Shown here one piece after another: positions 20,702-30,251 of a DNA stretch of 64,000 nucleotides; positions within the stretch are counted from its first letter, which is position 1, and each line of letters begins with the position of its first letter. The translations under genes were made by a program, and so were the position numbers. Origin of the DNA: Kushneria aurantia DSM 21353 (GTDB lineage: Bacteria; Pseudomonadota; Gammaproteobacteria; Pseudomonadales; Halomonadaceae); NCBI RefSeq assembly GCF_000382245.1, contig NZ_KB907868.1, positions 62,001 through 126,000 of the forward strand, read 5' to 3'. The notes beneath the pieces were generated by a model. The model was not told the DNA's origin and searched no databases. It saw only the letters and a program-made list of their open reading frames with translations.

Positions 20702-22624
20702 ATGGCTTTGAAAAAAAGCGCGATTCAGTCAGACGACCAGCAGAGCGGGCAGGCGCGCGGCGCGTCGGCGACGGCGCAGCAGAGCGCCGAGCAGCAGCGC
20801 CGCCGGGCCCGCACGCTGGCCAAACAGCAGCAGTCCTCCGAGCGGGTCGCCAGCGCCGCCCAGCAGGTGGCGAGCAGTATTACCGAATCCGGCCAGGCGC
20901 GAGAGCAGCTCAACCAGAATCTGCAGGAGATCGCCTCGGCGGCGGAGGAGTCCGCCTCTGCCAGCCAGGAGAGTCTCGCCAGCGTGCGTTCGATCAACGA
21001 GCGCATCAAAACGCTCAATCAGCAGATCAAGAGTTCGCGCACTGAAGCGGATGATGCCAATCAGCGCTCGCGCCAGGCCGCGCAGCGCATCCGCAGCCTG
21101 TTCGAGAGTCTGAAGAGTACCGCCGAGCGCCAGCAGCGCTCGCAGTCGCTGATGCAGCAGCTCGAAGAGCAGGCCGGCTCGATCAACGAGGCCGCCGGTC
21201 ACGTCATGCGCATCGCTGACCAGACCAACCTGCTGGCGCTCAACGCCGCTATCGAGGCGGGACGCGCCGGTCATCACGGTCGTGGTTTCGCGGTGGTGGC
21301 GGATACCGTGCGCGGGCTGGCCGAAGCCGCCGGGCGCAGCGCCACCGAAATTACCCAGCTGGCGGATCAGATTCAGGAGCGCACCGGCAGCGCCGGCGAA
21401 CTGGTCAAGCAGTCGGCGGAGGCGGCCGGCAAGCAGGTCACTTCCAGCGAGGATGTCAACAATCAGTTTACCGCCATCGTCGAGGAGATGCGCGAGATCG
21501 CTGCCCTCACGGAGGCGATCGATGGTGCGGTGGACGAAGTCGAGGCGGCGATGTCCGACCTGCAGCAGGGCTCGGAAAATGTCGCCTCCGCTGCCGAGCA
21601 GCAGGCCTCCGCCTCGGAGGAGGTGGTCAACTCGCTGAGCGAGCAGAACACCGCGCTGAAGGAGGCCGAGACGCGCGCTCGCGAGTTGGAGGAGACCTCC
21701 GATGCCCTGCGTCAGAGCACCGAGGCGAGCCGCGATGCCGAGAGGGTGGCGGCGATCGCCGAGGACCTGGCCTCCTCGGTGGAGGAGTTGCAGCGTGGCT
21801 CGACCGAGGTCAGGACCGCACTGAGCGAGATTCTCGGCGGTGCCGAACAGAACGCCTCGGCTGCCGAGGAGTCGCTGACCGCGGTGCGTCAGGTCGAGGA
21901 GAACGTCAACAGCGCCGGCAGCCAGGCCGAAGACAGCCTGTCGCGTACCCAGCGCGTGTCGGAGTTGCTGTCGCACAACCGCAAAGCCATCGATGAGCTG
22001 ATCAGCGGCGTCGAAACCGGCTTCGAGCAGGCTCAGCAGAATCTGAGCGAAATCCAGTCGATCCAGCAGTTCAATCGCCAGACCGACCGGATCGCCAACA
22101 ACATCTCCAATATCGCCATCAAGACCAGCATGCTGGCGGTCAACGGCGCCGTCGAGGCCGCCCGTGCCGGCGAACACGGCAGCGGCTTTGCCGTCGTCTC
22201 CGGCGATATCCAGACGCTGGCCGACGACTCCAGCAAGAACGTCGAGGAGATTCAGGATCTGGTGCGCCGCATTCAGAACCATGCCGACAATCTCGAGCGC
22301 GATCTCGAAGAGCTTTTGAAGTGGTCCGAGCGCGACGTCGAACGTGCCCGCGACACCCTGGCCGATGTGGCCAGCCTGGAGGGCATGCGGGATTCATTGC
22401 TGACCGGCAGCCAGGGCGTGCAGGGAGGCCTCAACGAGGTCACCAATGCAATCGGCGAAGCGCGCACCGGCATGCAGCAGGTGGCGGAGTCGGCGGAAGA
22501 GTCGACCACCAACGTGCGTTACGCCTCGACCTCGGCCGACGAGCAGGCGCAGGGCGCCGAAGAGCTGGCGGCCGCGGTCGAGGAGATCTCCTCTATCGCC
22601 GACGAGATGCAGTACAGCCAGTAA
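20702..22624 (+). CDS. Soluble methyl-accepting chemotaxis protein with two signalling tips
   Basis: The 640-residue protein is almost wholly coiled coil and has no signal peptide, membrane segment or recognisable sensor domain. It contains two copies of the receptor hairpin tip that binds CheA and CheW. Tip 1 is near residues 175-207 ([18 protein letters not shown], then [16 protein letters not shown]). Tip 2 is near 475-507 ([20 protein letters not shown], then [14 protein letters not shown]) and is more divergent. Ser/Ala/Glu-rich flanks could be methylation helices for the CheR and CheB encoded downstream. It is the first gene of an eight-gene chemosensory operon. The ribosome-binding site is weak. 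FrzCD of Myxococcus is another cytoplasmic receptor, but it has a single tip. Confidence 0.88.
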
Positions 22625-22685
22625 CCGCCCCTTTGGCGCTGCGCGTCCGGGAGCTGCGGCGAAAGCCGCTGTATGGAGAGACAGC

Positions 22686-24230
22686 ATGAGTTCATCGCAA
22701 GCGCAAACAAGCGACGACAGCGGCGTCGTCATCTGCCGGCTGGGCGGCGAGCGTTTTGCCCTGCCGATGCGTCAGGTCAGCGGCGTGCTGCGTCGTCCCG
22801 CCATACGTCGTCTGCCGATGTCGCAGCAGGCGCTGCTGGGGCTGGCCAGTCTGCGCGGCAGCGTGGTGCCGATCATCGCTCTGCATCACCTGCTGGGGCT
22901 GGCCTGTGATCGCGATGGCGAAAGCGACAGCCGCATCGTGATGATGGAGCTGGAGCAGACGCTGGGCATCTGCGTCGATGATGTCGAGAACGTGGTGTCG
23001 CTGCCGGCCGAAAGTGCTATCGGTGCGGCAGAAGAGACGACGCGCAGCGGCGTGCGCGGTCACCATCTCGACAGTGAAGGGCGCGTGATTCAATGGCTCG
23101 ATGTCGCCCGGCTGGTGCAGGAGCAGCTGGTACCCGTCGAACGCAAGGCGGTGCCGACGCCCTCGGGGGCCGCTCAGACGGCGTCACCGGACCCCGGCAC
23201 GCCGCAATATGACAGCCGTGAGCAGAACATCTCGCTGGTCAGTTTTACGCTGGCCGAACAGCATTTTGCGCTACACCTCGAACATGTTCGCCAGATCCTG
23301 CGCCTGCCCGAGGAGGTCAGCGCGGTGCCCAACGCTCCGGACTACCTGCTGGGGCTGATGACGCTGCGCGACGAGACCCTGCCGCTGCTGGCGCTCGGCC
23401 CCTGGTTCGGGCTGGCCGGGCTCCCCGAAGCGGGGGCGCCGGTGGTGGTGCTGGGGCTCGGGGAGTACCGCATTGGCGTGGTGGTGGATGGCGTCAACCA
23501 GGTGGTCCGGCTGGCGCCGGCCGCGCTGCGCGGCTTTCCGGCGCTGTCCACCGGTGGTCCGGATGCCGGCATCGAGGCGATCTGCCGGCCGGCGGCCGAT
23601 CAGCCGCTGATGACGCTTCTGAGCGAGCAGCCCTTTCGCAAGCTGGCCGAGCAGTATGGCGTTCCGATGGCGGCCTCGCGGGACGTCCGGGACGGCAGTG
23701 AAGCGGTCGATGAGGGCGAGGATGACGATGAATCGCTGCGGCTGTTGGAGTTCAGCCTTGCCGGCCAGCAGTACAGTCTGCCGCTGGAAGCGGTGACCGA
23801 GATCGCCAGTCGACCCGAGGCGCCCACTCAGGTGCCGGCAACCCCTGAATTTCTCGACGGCATGATCAACCTGCGCGGTGATGCCCTGCCCATTGTCGAC
23901 ATGGCAAAGCGGCTGGGCGTGGCGCCTGAAGTGTCCGGCGACGACAGGAGCGGCAGCGAGCGACGCATCGTGGTGGTCAGTCACCGTGGCATGAAAACCG
24001 GGCTGCTGGTCGATGTGGTCAACAACGTCATGCATGTTCGCCGCTCGTGGCTCGAAGCGTCACCGGTCGTCATGCTGGGGCGCGAAGTGCTGGTGGATCG
24101 CCTGGTGAGACTGCCCGACAGTCGCGATGTCATTCAACTGCTGACGCTGGAGGCGCTGTTCTCCGCCGACGAACGAGCGCAGCTCGATGAAATGAGCGGT
24201 GACGTCGCCGACGCGCCATTAACGGAATGA
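22686..24230 (+). CDS. Triple-domain CheW coupling protein
   Basis: The 514-residue protein consists of three CheW/SH3-like domains at about residues 12-150, 182-325 and 351-495. Each begins with the same pattern (VVICRLGGERFALPMRQV, LVSFTLAEQHFALHLEHV, LLEFSLAGQQYSLPLEAV) and has the LLGLxxLRG or LDGMINLRG core. CheW links receptors to CheA. A GGAGAG lies just upstream of the ATG at 22686; in-frame sequence further upstream is not family-like. Three coupling domains on one chain, next to a receptor with two tips, suggest a multivalent array. The linkers are charged and low in complexity. Confidence 0.88.
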   Translation: MSSSQAQTSDDSGVVICRLGGERFALPMRQVSGVLRRPAIRRLPMSQQALLGLASLRGSVVPIIALHHLLGLACDRDGESDSRIVMMELEQTLGICVDDVENVVSLPAESAIGAAEETTRSGVRGHHLDSEGRVIQWLDVARLVQEQLVPVERKAVPTPSGAAQTASPDPGTPQYDSREQNISLVSFTLAEQHFALHLEHVRQILRLPEEVSAVPNAPDYLLGLMTLRDETLPLLALGPWFGLAGLPEAGAPVVVLGLGEYRIGVVVDGVNQVVRLAPAALRGFPALSTGGPDAGIEAICRPAADQPLMTLLSEQPFRKLAEQYGVPMAASRDVRDGSEAVDEGEDDDESLRLLEFSLAGQQYSLPLEAVTEIASRPEAPTQVPATPEFLDGMINLRGDALPIVDMAKRLGVAPEVSGDDRSGSERRIVVVSHRGMKTGLLVDVVNNVMHVRRSWLEASPVVMLGREVLVDRLVRLPDSRDVIQLLTLEALFSADERAQLDEMSGDVADAPLTE

Positions 24231-24234
24231 TGCC

Positions 24235-25311
24235 ATGACGACCAGGGTGCTGGTGGTGGATGACTCGGCGCTGATGCGCCGCCAACTGCGAACCCTTTTG
24301 GAAGAGGCGGGGGAGTTCGAGGTGACCACGGCGCGTAACGGCGAGGACGCGCTGACGCAGTGTCGCGAGCGACGCCCCGATGTGGTGACGCTGGATATCA
24401 ACATGCCGGTCATGGACGGTCTGACCTGTCTGTCGCACCTGATGATCGAGACGCCCTGCCCGGTGATCATGGTCTCGTCGCTGACCGAAAAGGGCGCGCT
24501 GTCGACCTTCGAGGCCCTTGAACTGGGAGCCTTCGACTACGTCACCAAGCCCGATGGCACGGTATCGAGCAACATGCGGACAGTAGCCGATGCGCTGATC
24601 GACCGGGTGCGCGCTGCGGCCGGTAATCGCCGTGGCACGCCCGAGCGCACCTCGGCAGCGGTCGCCGACGAGCCGCCGGTCACGGCGCCGGCAAGACGCA
24701 ACACGGCGGCGGTCACCTTTGCCCGACCGCCGCAGCGGGAACTGGTGGTCATCGGCGTTTCCACCGGTGGTCCGGGCACCCTGGAGACCATTCTGGGCGA
24801 GCTGCCGGCCGACTTCCCGATCCCCATCGTTATCGCCCAGCATATGCCGGCGCGCTTTACCGAAGTGTTCGCCGCACGGCTGAACGACAAGTGCGCCGTC
24901 GAGGTACAGGAGGTGCGCGGCCCGGTCAGGCTGCAGCCCGGCAACGTTTATATGGCGCGTGGCGAGGCCGACATGCGCATCGTGCGGCGCGGCACGACGC
25001 TGGTAGCGAAGAGCCTGCCGAGCAGCGATCGCTACCTCTGGCACCCCAGCGTCTCGCGGCTGGTGGCCTCCGTGCTGGAGGTGGTTACCCCGTCTCGGCT
25101 GATTGCCGTGCAGCTGACCGGCATGGGCTACGACGGCGCCGAGGAGATGGCCGACGCCCATCGCCGGGGCGCGCTGACGCTGGCCGAGAGCGAGCGCAGC
25201 GCGGTGGTCTACGGCATGCCGCGGGTGCTGATCGAAAGCGGTGGCGCCGAGGTGGTGTGCGACAGCCGCGACATGGCCGCGCAACTGATGCAGTGGCTGG
25301 CCGCAACCTGA
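24235..25311 (+). CDS. cheB: CheB protein-glutamate methylesterase
   Basis: The 358-residue protein has an N-terminal receiver domain with phospho-acceptor D54 (TLDINMPVMDG) and acid pocket D9/D10. The C-terminal methylesterase domain has catalytic triad S176 (GVSTGGPGT), H203 (AQHMP) and D300 (GMGYDG). It removes methyl groups from, and deamidates, the receptor. A linker of about 40 residues joins the domains. It starts four bases after the triple-CheW stop, so the operon is tight. Confidence 0.95.
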   Translation: MTTRVLVVDDSALMRRQLRTLLEEAGEFEVTTARNGEDALTQCRERRPDVVTLDINMPVMDGLTCLSHLMIETPCPVIMVSSLTEKGALSTFEALELGAFDYVTKPDGTVSSNMRTVADALIDRVRAAAGNRRGTPERTSAAVADEPPVTAPARRNTAAVTFARPPQRELVVIGVSTGGPGTLETILGELPADFPIPIVIAQHMPARFTEVFAARLNDKCAVEVQEVRGPVRLQPGNVYMARGEADMRIVRRGTTLVAKSLPSSDRYLWHPSVSRLVASVLEVVTPSRLIAVQLTGMGYDGAEEMADAHRRGALTLAESERSAVVYGMPRVLIESGGAEVVCDSRDMAAQLMQWLAAT

Positions 25312-25333
25312 TGATGAGTGCAGGAGAGCTTCG

Positions 25334-25960
25334 ATGGCCCCTCTGAGGCGCAGCGCAATTTGCTCCGGGACGCCTGACAGCCGTGGTGGTGATAACGACA
25401 TCGCGGCAGGCGATCTGTACGATCCGACGCCTGCCGTGCGACGGGCGGCCGCAAGGGGGCTGGCCGACTCCCCCGAGGCGGCATCGTCGCTACTGCGGTG
25501 TCTGCGCCTTGAACCCGAACACAGCGTGCGTGCGACCCTCTTTACGGCGCTCGAATATCAGCACAACGAGACGGCTACCGAAGGTCTGATCGAACTGCTG
25601 CGCAGCGACAGCGCCGAACTGCGAAGCGGTGCGGTAGCCGTGCTGCAGACCCGACCCGCCGAGATGGCGCCGCATATGGAAGAGCTGCTGCGCGACCCGG
25701 ACGCGGACGTGCGCATCATGGCACTGGACGTGCTGGGGGGCATGCCCCACCAGCAGTGTCCTGTCTGGCTGATGTGGCTTCTGGAGCATGAAAGCCACCC
25801 CAACGTGCTGGGCGCGGCGCTCGACCGTCTGATGGAGATCGGCGACGGTCGCGCACTGCCGCTGCTCGCCCGACTGCGTGAGCGGGTGGGTGATGACCCC
25901 TGTCTGGGGTTTGTCATCGACGCCGTTTATCGGCGTATCGAGGACTCGTCCGATGGCTGA
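25334..25960 (+). CDS. HEAT-repeat protein within the chemosensory operon
   Basis: This 208-residue protein is built of short alpha-helical pairs of the HEAT type. Repeated patterns such as PAVRRAAARGLADSPEAASS, SVRATLFTALEYQ, ELRSGAVAVLQTRPAEM and DVRIMALDVLGGMP recur about every 30 residues. HEAT solenoids bind other proteins. It lies between cheB and cheR and overlaps cheR by eight bases, so it is probably a partner of this signalling system, perhaps an adaptor or input for a receptor that lacks a sensor domain. That role is inference. A GGAG lies eight bases before the ATG. Confidence 0.8.
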   Translation: MAPLRRSAICSGTPDSRGGDNDIAAGDLYDPTPAVRRAAARGLADSPEAASSLLRCLRLEPEHSVRATLFTALEYQHNETATEGLIELLRSDSAELRSGAVAVLQTRPAEMAPHMEELLRDPDADVRIMALDVLGGMPHQQCPVWLMWLLEHESHPNVLGAALDRLMEIGDGRALPLLARLRERVGDDPCLGFVIDAVYRRIEDSSDG

Positions 25961-26837
25961 GACCATGCACAGCCTGCGCAAAACCGCGGTGACCCTGAGT
26001 GACGCCGATTTTGGCCGCTTTCGTGACTATTTCTATCGCCGCACCGGTATCTATTTCGAGGACTCCAAGCGCTACTTCGTCGACAAACGCCTGCTGGAGC
26101 GCATGCGGCTCACCGGTCACGAGGAGTTTCGCGGCTACTTCGCTGCCCTGCGCTTCAGGGCGGTCGGCGATGAGTTTCAGAACCTCGTCAACGCCATGAC
26201 GGTCAACGAGACCTATTTCATGCGTGAGCGTTACCAGTTCGACTGTCTGGTCGAAGAGGTGCTGGAGGAGGTCATGCGGCGTCGCGAGGGCAGCCGACCG
26301 ATCCGTATCTGGGTGATCCCTTCCAGCACCGGCGAGGAGCCCTATTCGCTGGCGCTGACGCTGCTGTCGCGCTGGCCGCTGATCGACAGCGTCGACGTCG
26401 AGATCGTTGCCTCCGATATCGACACCAGCGTGCTGGAGCGTGCCCGGCTGGGCGTCTACACCGGTCGTTCGCTGCAGCATGTGGACAGCGAACTGCGCCG
26501 GCGCTACTTCAACGAGCTGGGCGGCGGCCGCTGGCAGATCGCCGACTTCATTCGCGATGCGGTCAGTTTTTCGCGGGTCAATCTGCTGGAGCCCGAGCAT
26601 CTGCGGGGCTATCGCGATTTCGACATCATTTTGTGTCGCAATCTGCTGATCTATTTCGATGATGCGTCGCGCCGCCGGGCGGCCAGCATTCTCTACGACG
26701 CCCTGGATGAAGGCGGCTTCATTTTCCTCGGTCACTCCGAATCGATGAGCCGTATCTCCTCGTCGTATCAGGTACGCAGGTTCAAACATGCACTGGTTTA
26801 CCAGAAGCCGTGGAAACGACCCCGGAGCGAGCCATGA
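25953..26837 (+). CDS. cheR: CheR protein-glutamate methyltransferase
   Basis: This 294-residue SAM-dependent enzyme methylates receptor glutamates. It has the all-alpha N-terminal domain and the motif SSTGEEPYSLALTL (CheR motif I) in the Rossmann domain, followed by ASDIDTSVLERARLGVY and the block ILCRNLLIYFDDASRR. The start at 25953 overlaps the HEAT gene by eight bases; its stop overlaps the cheY start in an ATGA. No TPR or pentapeptide-binding extension is seen. Confidence 0.94.
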   Translation: MAETMHSLRKTAVTLSDADFGRFRDYFYRRTGIYFEDSKRYFVDKRLLERMRLTGHEEFRGYFAALRFRAVGDEFQNLVNAMTVNETYFMRERYQFDCLVEEVLEEVMRRREGSRPIRIWVIPSSTGEEPYSLALTLLSRWPLIDSVDVEIVASDIDTSVLERARLGVYTGRSLQHVDSELRRRYFNELGGGRWQIADFIRDAVSFSRVNLLEPEHLRGYRDFDIILCRNLLIYFDDASRRRAASILYDALDEGGFIFLGHSESMSRISSSYQVRRFKHALVYQKPWKRPRSEP

Positions 26838-27250
26838 AACAGATTCTGATCGTTGACGACGCCCTGACGGTGCGCATGTTTCACCGTCAACTGGTGACCG
26901 CTATCGGCCATGGCGTGGTCGAAGCGGAAAACGGTGTCGAAGCGCTCGAAAAGCTGGCGCAGGCGCCCTGCGATCTGATGCTGGTAGACGTCAACATGCC
27001 CTTTATGGACGGCTATCGCTTTATTCGCAGCGTGCGCGAGAGCGCCGAATGGTGTGACATACCGGCGATCATGATCAGCACCGAAGCGAAGCCCGACGAC
27101 CGCCGTCAGGCCTACGCCGCCGGCGCCAATTTCTATCTGGTGAAACCGACCGATCCACAGCATCTTGAAAAACTGATCGTTACTCTTCTCGGCCACCCCG
27201 AGCCCGAGGCCAGGGCTGCCGTCAACCGCGAGACAGGAGCCTGCTCATGA
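26834..27250 (+). CDS. cheY: CheY-like single-domain response regulator
   Basis: The 138-residue receiver domain has acid pocket D8/D9, phospho-acceptor D52 (LVDVNMPFMDG), a conserved threonine in MISTEAK and the lysine in LVKPTD. It has no output domain, so it acts by binding a partner. It overlaps cheR and cheA by four bases on each side. The target could be the flagellar motor or another effector; no flagellar, pilus or cyclic-di-GMP gene is adjacent. Confidence 0.92.
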   Translation: MKQILIVDDALTVRMFHRQLVTAIGHGVVEAENGVEALEKLAQAPCDLMLVDVNMPFMDGYRFIRSVRESAEWCDIPAIMISTEAKPDDRRQAYAAGANFYLVKPTDPQHLEKLIVTLLGHPEPEARAAVNRETGACS

Positions 27251-30018
27251 ACTCACTGCTTGAGTCCTATATCGTCGAAGCGCGCGATATGCTGGAGTCC
27301 GCCAGCGAAACCATTCTGGCGCTGGAAAAAACGCCCGATGCCAGCGACCGGCTGGATGAGCTGTTTCGCAGCATCCATACCCTCAAGGGCACCTCGGGCA
27401 TGTTTGATAACCTGAACGCCCTCTACCGGCTGGTGCACGTTGCCGAGGACGGTCTCGACCGCCTGCGCGGGCGCGAATTCGATCTGACCGGCGACTATAT
27501 CGACCTGCTGTTCGACGTGCTCGACCAGCTCAACGGCTGGCTCGATCATCTCGACCAGCACGGCGAGCTGCCCGACGATGCCGAAGCGGCGGCTACGGCG
27601 CTGATCGCGCGGCTGGGTAGCGAGGTGCCGCAGAGCGGTGCGACCATCGCGCCGCCGGAAAGTCCCGCCGAGCCGCCTGCCGAGGCCCCCGAATGGGTCG
27701 CCGCGCTGCCGCCGGCGTGGCTGCATGAAGCGCGCGAGGAGGCGCGCCGAGTGCCGCAGGCGAGCGTGCTGGCGCTGACCTGGCGCCCCGAAGAGAGTGC
27801 CATCTACGACGGCGGCGATCCTCTCGCCGATATCGCTGCACTGCCCGGGCTGATCGGCTTTCGCGCCGCGCCGCGCGAGCCCTGGCCCGATATGGAGCTA
27901 TTCGATCCCTACCACTGCACACTGGCGTTCATGGCGCTGACCGTCACCACCCATGATGCCATGACGCAACACCTGGGCGCGGCACAGGCGCAGTGCCAGT
28001 GGCAGGAGGTGAGCGCCGCACTGCAGGCAGACGATAGCGAGGACGCCATACCACAGGCCGCTGACGGAGAGGCGGAGGCCGACACGCCGGCGGGCGACTC
28101 GCCGGAACTGGAGGCGCTGTTCGAAGCGCAGTCCGCCGAGCATGACAAGGCTCAGGAGCCGGCTGCCGCCCCCGAGGGTTCGGCTACGGCGGCGCCGGGC
28201 GGCGACTCGCCGGAGCTGGAAGCGCTCTTCGCAGCGCACGCGGATGATGCCGCTGCCAGTGACGATGAGGCGGACACAGACGATGAGGCGGACACAGACG
28301 ATGAGGTGGCGCGTGAAATGCTGGCTGAACAGCGGCGCGTGCTACTTACCCCCGTCGAGGAAGCGCAGCGTTCCGGGCGACTGGACGCAGTAGTCCGGGT
28401 GATCGGCGAGATACTGGCGCAACAGCGCCGCGAGCACTCGCTGGAAACGCTGCAGGCCGCCGGAGAGCAGGCGCGCAGCGAAAACAGTGAAGCGCCGCTC
28501 TTGAGCTGGCTGGACAGCGAGCTGCCCGCCGAGTCGCAGAGTGAGGACGTCGCAACGCCCGCCAATAGCGAGCCGACGGCGAGCGAAGCGGATCAGCAGG
28601 GTAGAGCAGAGCACAAGAGTGAAGCGAATCAAAAGCGTGGGGCGGATCAGGAGCGCGCCACGGCATCCGCTGGTGGCGCTGCAGCAGCGCCGGCCGAGCG
28701 TGAAACCTCGGGCGCTTCGGCGCCGGCGAGCCGGCGTCAGTCGAGCGACCGCGGCGGCGAGTCCTCCGGCGGCCATGCCGACAGCCGCCCGCTGCGCGTG
28801 GAGCAGCACCGCATCGATGAGTTGATGAATCTGGCCGGCGAGCTGATCGTGGCCAAGAACGCGCTGCCCTTTCTGGCCCGGCGGATCGAAAACGGCGACG
28901 ACCGTGACGAGCTGGTGCGCGAACTCAAGGTCAGCCAGGCCAACATCGACCGTATCTCCAATCGCATCCAGGACGCCGTCATGTCGGCGCGCATGGTGCC
29001 CATGTCGACGGTGTTCCAGCGCTTTCCACGGCTGGTGCGCGATATCGCCCGCAAGCTCGACAAAAAAGTGGAGCTGGTCACCGAAGGAGAGGAGACCGAG
29101 GCCGACAAGAACATTATCGGCGGTCTCGGCGACCCGCTCACCCACCTGATCCGCAACAGCCTCGATCACGGCATGGAGCTTCCCGCCGAGCGCACGGCAG
29201 CCGGCAAGCCCGCCACCGGCCGCGTGACGCTGCGCGCCGCGACCATGGAAGACCACGTCATGATTGAGCTGAGCGACGACGGTCGCGGCATCGACGCCCA
29301 GGCGATCATGCAGCGCGCCTATCAGAAGGGGCTGGTGGATGAGCACGAACTCGACGGCATGAGCGAGGAGGAAGCGCTCAACCTGATTCTGCTGCCCGGT
29401 TTCTCCACCGCCGATCAGGTCTCCGACCTGTCCGGCCGCGGCGTGGGCATGGACGCGGTCAAGAGTGCCATTCAGGAGGTCGGTGGCCGGCTGGTGATCC
29501 AGAGCGAGAAGGGCGCGGGTTCCACCATGCGCATCATGCTGCCGATGTCGATGGCCGTCACCCGGGTACTGGTGGTGGATATCGACAACCAGTACTACGG
29601 CGTGCCGATGCCGATTATCCGCGAAACCGTGCGGCTGCCGCGCAGCGCCTTCAATCGCGTCAAGCAGACCGAGGTGATGGCGCTGCGCGATGAGTTGATT
29701 CCGGTTCACCGCAGTCGTCAGCTGCTGGGGCTGGAGGGGCCGCAGGAGCCGCCCGAGGAGCAGGCGGTGCTGATTCTGGAGGTGGACAACCACAAGGTGG
29801 GGCTGGTAGTCGACGAGTTCCGCCAGAGCATGGATATCGTGCAAAAGCCCATGGAGGGCATCATGGCGCAGTTCGATATCTTTGCCGGCAGCGCGCTGAC
29901 CGGCGACGGTCGGGTGCTGCTGGTACTCAATGCCCCGGCGCTGCTGAAACGGGCGACCGCTGCCGGTGCGGCATCGTCCGGGGATATCAAACGTGCGCGA
30001 CACGAGGAGAGCGTCTGA
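27247..30018 (+). CDS. cheA: CheA histidine kinase with a long acidic linker
   Basis: The 923-residue kinase has an Hpt domain with phospho-histidine H44 (RSIHTLKGTSGMF). A second domain at about 145-258 includes GGDPLADIAALPGLIGF and may serve as P2. A disordered acidic linker of about 250 residues follows. Then come the dimerisation helices (from about 512, VEQHRIDELMNLAGELIV), the HATPase domain (N box RNSLDHG near 636, DDGRGID near 677) and a CheW-like P5 domain (about 765-905). In the linker the decapeptide GDSPELEALF occurs at 283-292 and 319-328, and an 18-base tandem duplication (28264-28299) encodes repeated DEADTD. It is longer than typical CheA (about 650-750). Confidence 0.94.
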   Translation: MNSLLESYIVEARDMLESASETILALEKTPDASDRLDELFRSIHTLKGTSGMFDNLNALYRLVHVAEDGLDRLRGREFDLTGDYIDLLFDVLDQLNGWLDHLDQHGELPDDAEAAATALIARLGSEVPQSGATIAPPESPAEPPAEAPEWVAALPPAWLHEAREEARRVPQASVLALTWRPEESAIYDGGDPLADIAALPGLIGFRAAPREPWPDMELFDPYHCTLAFMALTVTTHDAMTQHLGAAQAQCQWQEVSAALQADDSEDAIPQAADGEAEADTPAGDSPELEALFEAQSAEHDKAQEPAAAPEGSATAAPGGDSPELEALFAAHADDAAASDDEADTDDEADTDDEVAREMLAEQRRVLLTPVEEAQRSGRLDAVVRVIGEILAQQRREHSLETLQAAGEQARSENSEAPLLSWLDSELPAESQSEDVATPANSEPTASEADQQGRAEHKSEANQKRGADQERATASAGGAAAAPAERETSGASAPASRRQSSDRGGESSGGHADSRPLRVEQHRIDELMNLAGELIVAKNALPFLARRIENGDDRDELVRELKVSQANIDRISNRIQDAVMSARMVPMSTVFQRFPRLVRDIARKLDKKVELVTEGEETEADKNIIGGLGDPLTHLIRNSLDHGMELPAERTAAGKPATGRVTLRAATMEDHVMIELSDDGRGIDAQAIMQRAYQKGLVDEHELDGMSEEEALNLILLPGFSTADQVSDLSGRGVGMDAVKSAIQEVGGRLVIQSEKGAGSTMRIMLPMSMAVTRVLVVDIDNQYYGVPMPIIRETVRLPRSAFNRVKQTEVMALRDELIPVHRSRQLLGLEGPQEPPEEQAVLILEVDNHKVGLVVDEFRQSMDIVQKPMEGIMAQFDIFAGSALTGDGRVLLVLNAPALLKRATAAGAASSGDIKRARHEESV

Positions 30019-30251
30019 TGCCGATCGAATACCGCAAGCGCAGCGCCGTCATGCAGGGGGTCTGCCAGCTGGAGGAAGTCGAGGAGCTGCAGGGCTGGAT
30101 GCTGGAGAACCCGCGCGCCTCGCTCAACCTGGGACAGTGCGAGCATCTGCATACCGCCATCGTGCAGCTGATTCTGGCGAGTGAGTTTCGCATCTCGACA
30201 CCGCCCGAGCGGCCGCTGCTCAAAATGGCGCTGGGACTACCAACGCCCTGA
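30018..30251 (+). CDS. Small STAS-like protein ending the chemosensory operon
   Basis: The 77-residue protein starts on the last base of the cheA stop (TGATG). The central segment RASLNLGQCEHLHTAIVQLI has the pattern of a STAS-domain strand and helix (beta strand, conserved loop, then helix), as in anti-sigma-factor antagonists. The expected phosphorylatable Ser/Thr of the loop would be T41 or its neighbour. It is shorter than a full STAS domain (about 100 residues), so the fold call is tentative. Coupling to cheA suggests a regulatory partner. Confidence 0.6.
   Translation: MPIEYRKRSAVMQGVCQLEEVEELQGWMLENPRASLNLGQCEHLHTAIVQLILASEFRISTPPERPLLKMALGLPTP

Follow-up and report, generated by a model that had tools for sequence, protein, structure and literature searches.

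The closest described systems belong to the chemosensory class F9. The combination of DosM, a receptor carrying two signalling domains, with a triple CheW is described as unique to this class (PMC9321776, PMC7534058). Cluster I of Vibrio cholerae, an F9 system, forms purely cytoplasmic double-layered arrays in late stationary phase or at low oxygen, and the function of these arrays is given as unknown (PMC7534058). In the published view DosM is a scaffold and the input is supplied by other receptors (PMC7534058, PMC9321776). Three proteins from other chemosensory systems also enter the comparison. The small STAS protein CheS of Sinorhizobium meliloti binds CheA and affects the movement of phosphate between two CheYs (PMC12654446); the HEAT protein Cpc7 of Myxococcus xanthus binds CheY7 (PMC11514114); and the HEAT_PBS protein OE2401F of Halobacterium is needed between the Che system and the motor, the partners found for it being CheD and OE2402F (PMC2666748).

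The window, that is the whole analysed stretch of 64,000 nucleotides from Kushneria aurantia DSM 21353, carries at 20702-30251 of the + strand eight tightly packed genes in the order DosM-CheW3-CheB-HEAT-CheR-CheY-CheA-STAS (Table 1), next to a katG-like and an SMP-30-like gene (both named by eye). The first genes are separated by short gaps (DosM-CheW3, 61 bases; CheW3-CheB, 4; CheB-HEAT, 22) and the remaining ones overlap (HEAT/CheR by 8 bases, CheR/CheY by 4, CheY/CheA by 4, CheA stop and STAS start by 1). Pfam matches comprised MCPsignal (E 5e-54, three stretches), CheW (E 6e-76, three stretches), HEAT_2 (E 5e-21), CheB, CheR and Response_reg, with Hpt, H-kinase_dim, HATPase_c and CheW in CheA. 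The reading frame is open in all eight genes and the active-site motifs of CheA, CheY and CheB are present. The original prediction had described eight genes in this order with mostly overlapping or near-touching neighbours, intact enzymes of adaptation and phosphorelay and no sensor, and the coordinates, motifs and Pfam searches agree with it on each of these points; in particular, Pfam identified no sensor domain in any of the eight proteins. The G+C content of the operon (0.63-0.67) lies inside the range of the window and gives no hint of foreign origin. Upstream of the operon no convincing sigma-54 or sigma-28 promoter was identified (the best sites deviating at 3 and 5 positions, respectively), and a sigma-70 promoter scan gave no match.

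Table 1. Genes of the chemosensory operon, with positions counted from the first base of the window.
Feature	Position	Strand	Identified by
DosM-like receptor, 640 aa	20702..22624	+	Pfam, MCP domain search, hydropathy
CheW3, three tandem CheW domains (about 22725-23123, 23235-23591, 23742-24170)	22686..24230	+	Pfam
CheB, receiver and methylesterase, catalytic motifs in place (GVSTGG/QHMP/MGYDG)	24235..25311	+	Pfam, motifs
HEAT-repeat protein, 208 aa, 12 predicted helices (pLDDT 92.2)	25334..25960	+	Pfam, predicted structure
CheR methyltransferase	25953..26837	+	Pfam
CheY (CheY1), receiver, phospho-acceptor motif VDVNMP	26834..27250	+	Pfam, motif
CheA: Hpt with HTLKG (at 44), dimerisation, ATPase and CheW-like domains	27247..30018	+	Pfam, motif
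Small STAS-fold protein, 77 aa, motif HLHTA..Q	30018..30251	+	Predicted structure

By its gene content the operon is an intact F9-class system, a new member of an already named, uncommon class. This assignment follows the hallmarks published for the class, a DosM-like double-tipped receptor and a triple CheW: a soluble receptor with two signalling domains and a CheW with three concatenated CheW domains were both identified, and CheA and CheY lie in the same cluster, as in a full and not a partial F9 set. The gene set differs, as had been said, from those of E. coli Che, Wsp and Pil-Chp; membership of an already named system, which was to count as a refutation, largely holds, since the set falls in class F9. 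Like V. cholerae cluster I, the operon has a receptor with two signalling domains, a triple CheW and its own CheA, CheB, CheR and CheY, and is placed apart from the motor che genes; this likeness is drawn from the published description, arrays having been seen in V. cholerae and genes alone here.

Two other assignments were rejected: the Wsp/ACF class, no GGDEF domain being present in any of the eight proteins, and an E. coli-type motor Che system, the operon not being among motor or flagellar genes. In the same genome contig 17 carries a second CheA and a CheW, together with FliM and cheR- and cheB-like frames (these last two recognized by eye).

The two-tipped architecture of the receptor, free of membrane segments, is the decisive feature of the operon and was absent from the original prediction. 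Searching the genome for MCP signalling domains placed two of them in the receptor, at 21140-21589 and 22025-22501, and the glutamates of the two tips are residues 185 and 485. No transmembrane segment was predicted in the receptor, the highest mean Kyte-Doolittle value over 19 residues being 0.93. The distance from tip to tip is 300 residues in all 23 DosM proteins compared, the 22 relatives sharing 28-67% identity with the window's DosM across the stretch between the tips. These counts take in L055, L064 and L065 and leave out L060 (C-terminal piece only) and L062 (none found); the first 16 proteins aligned gap-free, and the 23-row alignment has gap columns and still 300 residues in every row. 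The arm before the first tip is 174 to 229 residues long in the other DosM frames, with the exception of L102 (121 residues), whose frame is broken near its start; seven frames added later were read from stop to stop, so their arms are possibly overlong. Methylation-like motifs were identified at five recurring positions, on both hairpins, in 8 to 13 of 16 DosM proteins. Receptor classes usually keep a constant length, so a fixed spacing is expected in kind. With a helix rise of 0.149 nm per residue, 300 residues of straight helix would measure about 45 nm. The reported height of the V. cholerae F9 array is 35 nm (PMC7534058), a mismatch that counts against the array model for this operon.

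Clusters readable from CheB to STAS numbered 22, the window included, the relatives being L022, L023, L024, L056-L063, L066, L067, L068 with L103, L095, L096, L097 and L099-L102. Most were obtained by genome searches, a scan of contigs with a narrow pattern having given 4 loci. Left out were L055 and L064 (contigs ending just behind or inside CheW3/CheB), L065 (lacking the end of CheB, HEAT and the start of CheR, with a shortened CheA; damaged or misassembled), L098 (the same gene set as L023), L025 (a weak match, with no match at the DosM level) and the fragmented CheW3 matches of G315, G410 and G587; L020 is the same stretch as L024 and was counted once. The full order found in the window is kept in 17 of the 22 clusters. 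HEAT was identified in 20 of the 22 and a clear STAS in 21, the remaining cluster (L068/L103) having a weak STAS at the expected place. The five incomplete clusters are L022 and L097 (both lacking HEAT and CheY1, the CheY directly before CheA), L060 (contig ending inside DosM), L062 and L068. The last is rearranged, yet its HEAT is still beside CheR and its STAS beside CheA; in L057 about 1 kb of other frames lies between CheB and HEAT. The proposal that order, HEAT and STAS would be conserved beside the che genes of relatives thus holds in most clusters, and suggests from gene content that HEAT and STAS are regular parts of F9 clusters. Neither word, HEAT or STAS, occurs in the body text of PMC7534058, PMC9321776 or PMC11940527, and no published account of either protein in F9 was among the matches listed in a limited literature search.

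In L062 (3461-6402) a shortened CheW3 was identified in an otherwise ordinary cluster, with an unrelated gene on the opposite strand upstream; no DosM match was obtained in roughly 5 kb upstream.

Behind STAS the clusters differ more from the window. With L059 left out (its contig ends), a second CheY-like receiver follows STAS in 19 of 21 clusters, being absent only from the window and its sister L022 (Salinisphaera), and a receptor follows the second CheY in 14. The operon in the window lacks this tail, in which it also differs from V. cholerae cluster I: downstream of it no match to a second CheY, a receptor or a ParA was identified. A ParA-type ATPase was identified after STAS in 9 of the 21 clusters, as in L024 (18717-19481) and L023 (18658-19422), and not in the window; it may serve the positioning of cytoplasmic arrays. 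In L097 (10610-11685) the second CheY is followed by a gene for a CheX/CheC-like phosphatase, with no receptor, and L067 appears similar by eye.

The HEAT protein is predicted to be a 12-helix solenoid (pLDDT 92.2) that, among PDB entries, most closely resembles designed HEAT-like repeat proteins. The gene lies between cheB and cheR, from which a role in adaptation could be read, HEAT docking CheR or CheB onto the soluble receptor; the 8-base overlap with cheR and the neighbourhood of CheR kept in the rearranged L068 point the same way. However, L022 and L097 keep DosM, CheB and CheR without HEAT, and what disappeared along with HEAT is CheY1, missing from these 2 of 22 clusters and from no others (Fisher p 0.004, kinship ignored); L097 keeps its later CheY. 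A tree of CheW3 plus DosM covered 20 clusters, all but L060 and L062. In it L022 groups with the window as its sister and L097 with L067 plus L095; the window, L067 and L095 all have both HEAT and CheY1. Since L022 and L097 are not sisters, the joint absence most simply arose twice. We consider the adaptation role unlikely and infer that F9 HEAT works with CheY1, as these two cases of co-loss and the published analogues would indicate. Like Cpc7 and OE2401F, it is a HEAT-repeat protein of a chemosensory gene set; unlike them it belongs to another kind of host system and is known from genes alone, the likeness being drawn from published descriptions. As such a dedicated partner, HEAT would be an output adaptor or a docking factor for CheY1. 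The 77-aa product of the last gene has no Pfam match. Its predicted fold (AlphaFold, 13 aligned members, pLDDT 94.8) is strand-strand-helix-strand-helix-strand-helix, and in a Foldseek search the top PDB entries included STAS proteins such as RsbV and SpoIIAA (best E 9e-4, the sole one <= 0.001). Five of the 13 members weakly touch STAS_2 (best E 0.02), and the divergent homologue L103 matches Pfam STAS_2 at E 5e-5, below the curated cut-off. The label STAS-like, given at first from the sequence, is upheld by fold and structural matches. With RsbV and SpoIIAA as best structural matches, the protein could be an anti-anti-sigma factor and the output transcription via partner switching. This is distinctly improbable: the phospho-acceptor position, aligned by eye with that of SpoIIAA, holds T or S in 10 of 13 members and A in 3, the residue before it is histidine in all 13, and the operon contains no gene for a partner kinase. 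The protein probably has a CheS-like seat on CheA instead, where, as CheS does in Sinorhizobium, it would bind CheA and tune phosphotransfer. Both it and CheS are small, consist of a single STAS domain and belong to a che cluster, in which its own gene lies beside cheA, and the two were likened by description; the CheS system has two CheYs in its cluster and the operon in the window one.

The absence of sensor domains from all eight proteins had led to the proposal that the input comes through HEAT or STAS. This is hardly credible, as Pfam and the predicted folds give no ligand-binding domain in either protein, HEAT is missing wherever CheY1 is missing, and the analogues put HEAT with CheY and STAS on CheA. 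A HEAT-CheY module fits better than a HEAT sensor because both are missing from the same two non-sister clusters. Moreover, the tail receptor of 14 of the 21 clusters, with a predicted membrane segment in 9 of the 10 examined, indicates that clusters of this family as a rule encode an additional receptor of their own. The missing tail could also mean that the cluster in the window is a decaying remnant, its second CheY being present in 19 of 21 clusters. This too is very improbable, given eight open frames with intact active-site motifs and a sister in another genus, L022, that likewise stands without a tail. The reading preferred here, to which we give a probability of roughly 0.75, is an F9 system reduced to its core, with a HEAT-CheY1 partnership, STAS on CheA and input from elsewhere. 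By comparison with V. cholerae, DosM dimers would span two base plates of CheA and CheW3 and hold a flat double-layered cytoplasmic array, the constant tip spacing would set the distance between the base plates, and other receptors within the array would supply the signal.

As the usual tail (the second CheY and often a receptor) is not present, the input of this strain would have to come from receptors encoded elsewhere. Fifteen other receptors were identified in the genome above the Pfam cut-off; at least two membrane segments are predicted for 13 of them and none for the remaining pair, encoded on contigs 27 and 28, which contain three or four PAS matches. These soluble receptors are the best candidates for filling the DosM array and would be the likeliest sources of its signal. 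The one on contig 28 (L078, 1783-3465) has three PAS matches and a signalling domain that breaks off shortly behind the tip (profile positions 25-96 of 172). The one on contig 27 (L021, 2554-6308) has four; next to it lie a divergent triple-CheW gene and, by eye, a gene resembling CorA. This receptor does not have to belong to the F9 system, because counterparts may exist in genomes without an F9 cluster: in 4 of the 9 other genomes of the genus, none with an F9 cluster, a long CheW frame was identified that is maybe a counterpart of this triple CheW, judged from the CheW frame only. The contig 27 triple CheW may be an exception to the statement that such proteins are unique to F9 (PMC9321776). 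The contig 27 genes were considered as a partial F9-like set and rejected, the receptor having a single signalling domain.

The distribution of the system is patchy. With the best few candidates scored per genome, those with a CheW3 of this kind at E <= 1e-40 numbered 7 of 275 for the family, 11 of 369 for the class, 9 of 398 for the phylum and 4 of 385 for a second class within that phylum; these samples overlap, and the genome of the window is itself counted in the first three. Within the genus an F9-type CheW3 was present in that genome only (1 of 10), the other nine giving weaker matches (best 2e-26) that correspond to ordinary CheW or other long CheW frames. The site of the operon is occupied differently in a relative, as in G006, of the same genus, the katG-like and SMP-30-like flanks are close together and enclose one DUF535 gene instead (L069, 2763-3761). 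In G001, G003 and G005 both flanks were strongly matched, about 50-60 kb apart. The difference at this site and the patchy spread fit gain by transfer or repeated loss.

A broader proposal is that HEAT (as a CheY1-specific partner) and STAS (as a CheA-bound regulator) would be constitutive, overlooked parts of F9 systems, with DosM as a fixed 300-residue ruler from one base plate to the other. We put this forward tentatively, at a little under even odds. The copy in the window is a compact, tail-free version of eight genes, simple enough that it could lend itself to reconstitution. Should HEAT prove to be the CheY1 partner, it would be the first handle on F9 output, and pull-downs could reveal that output directly.
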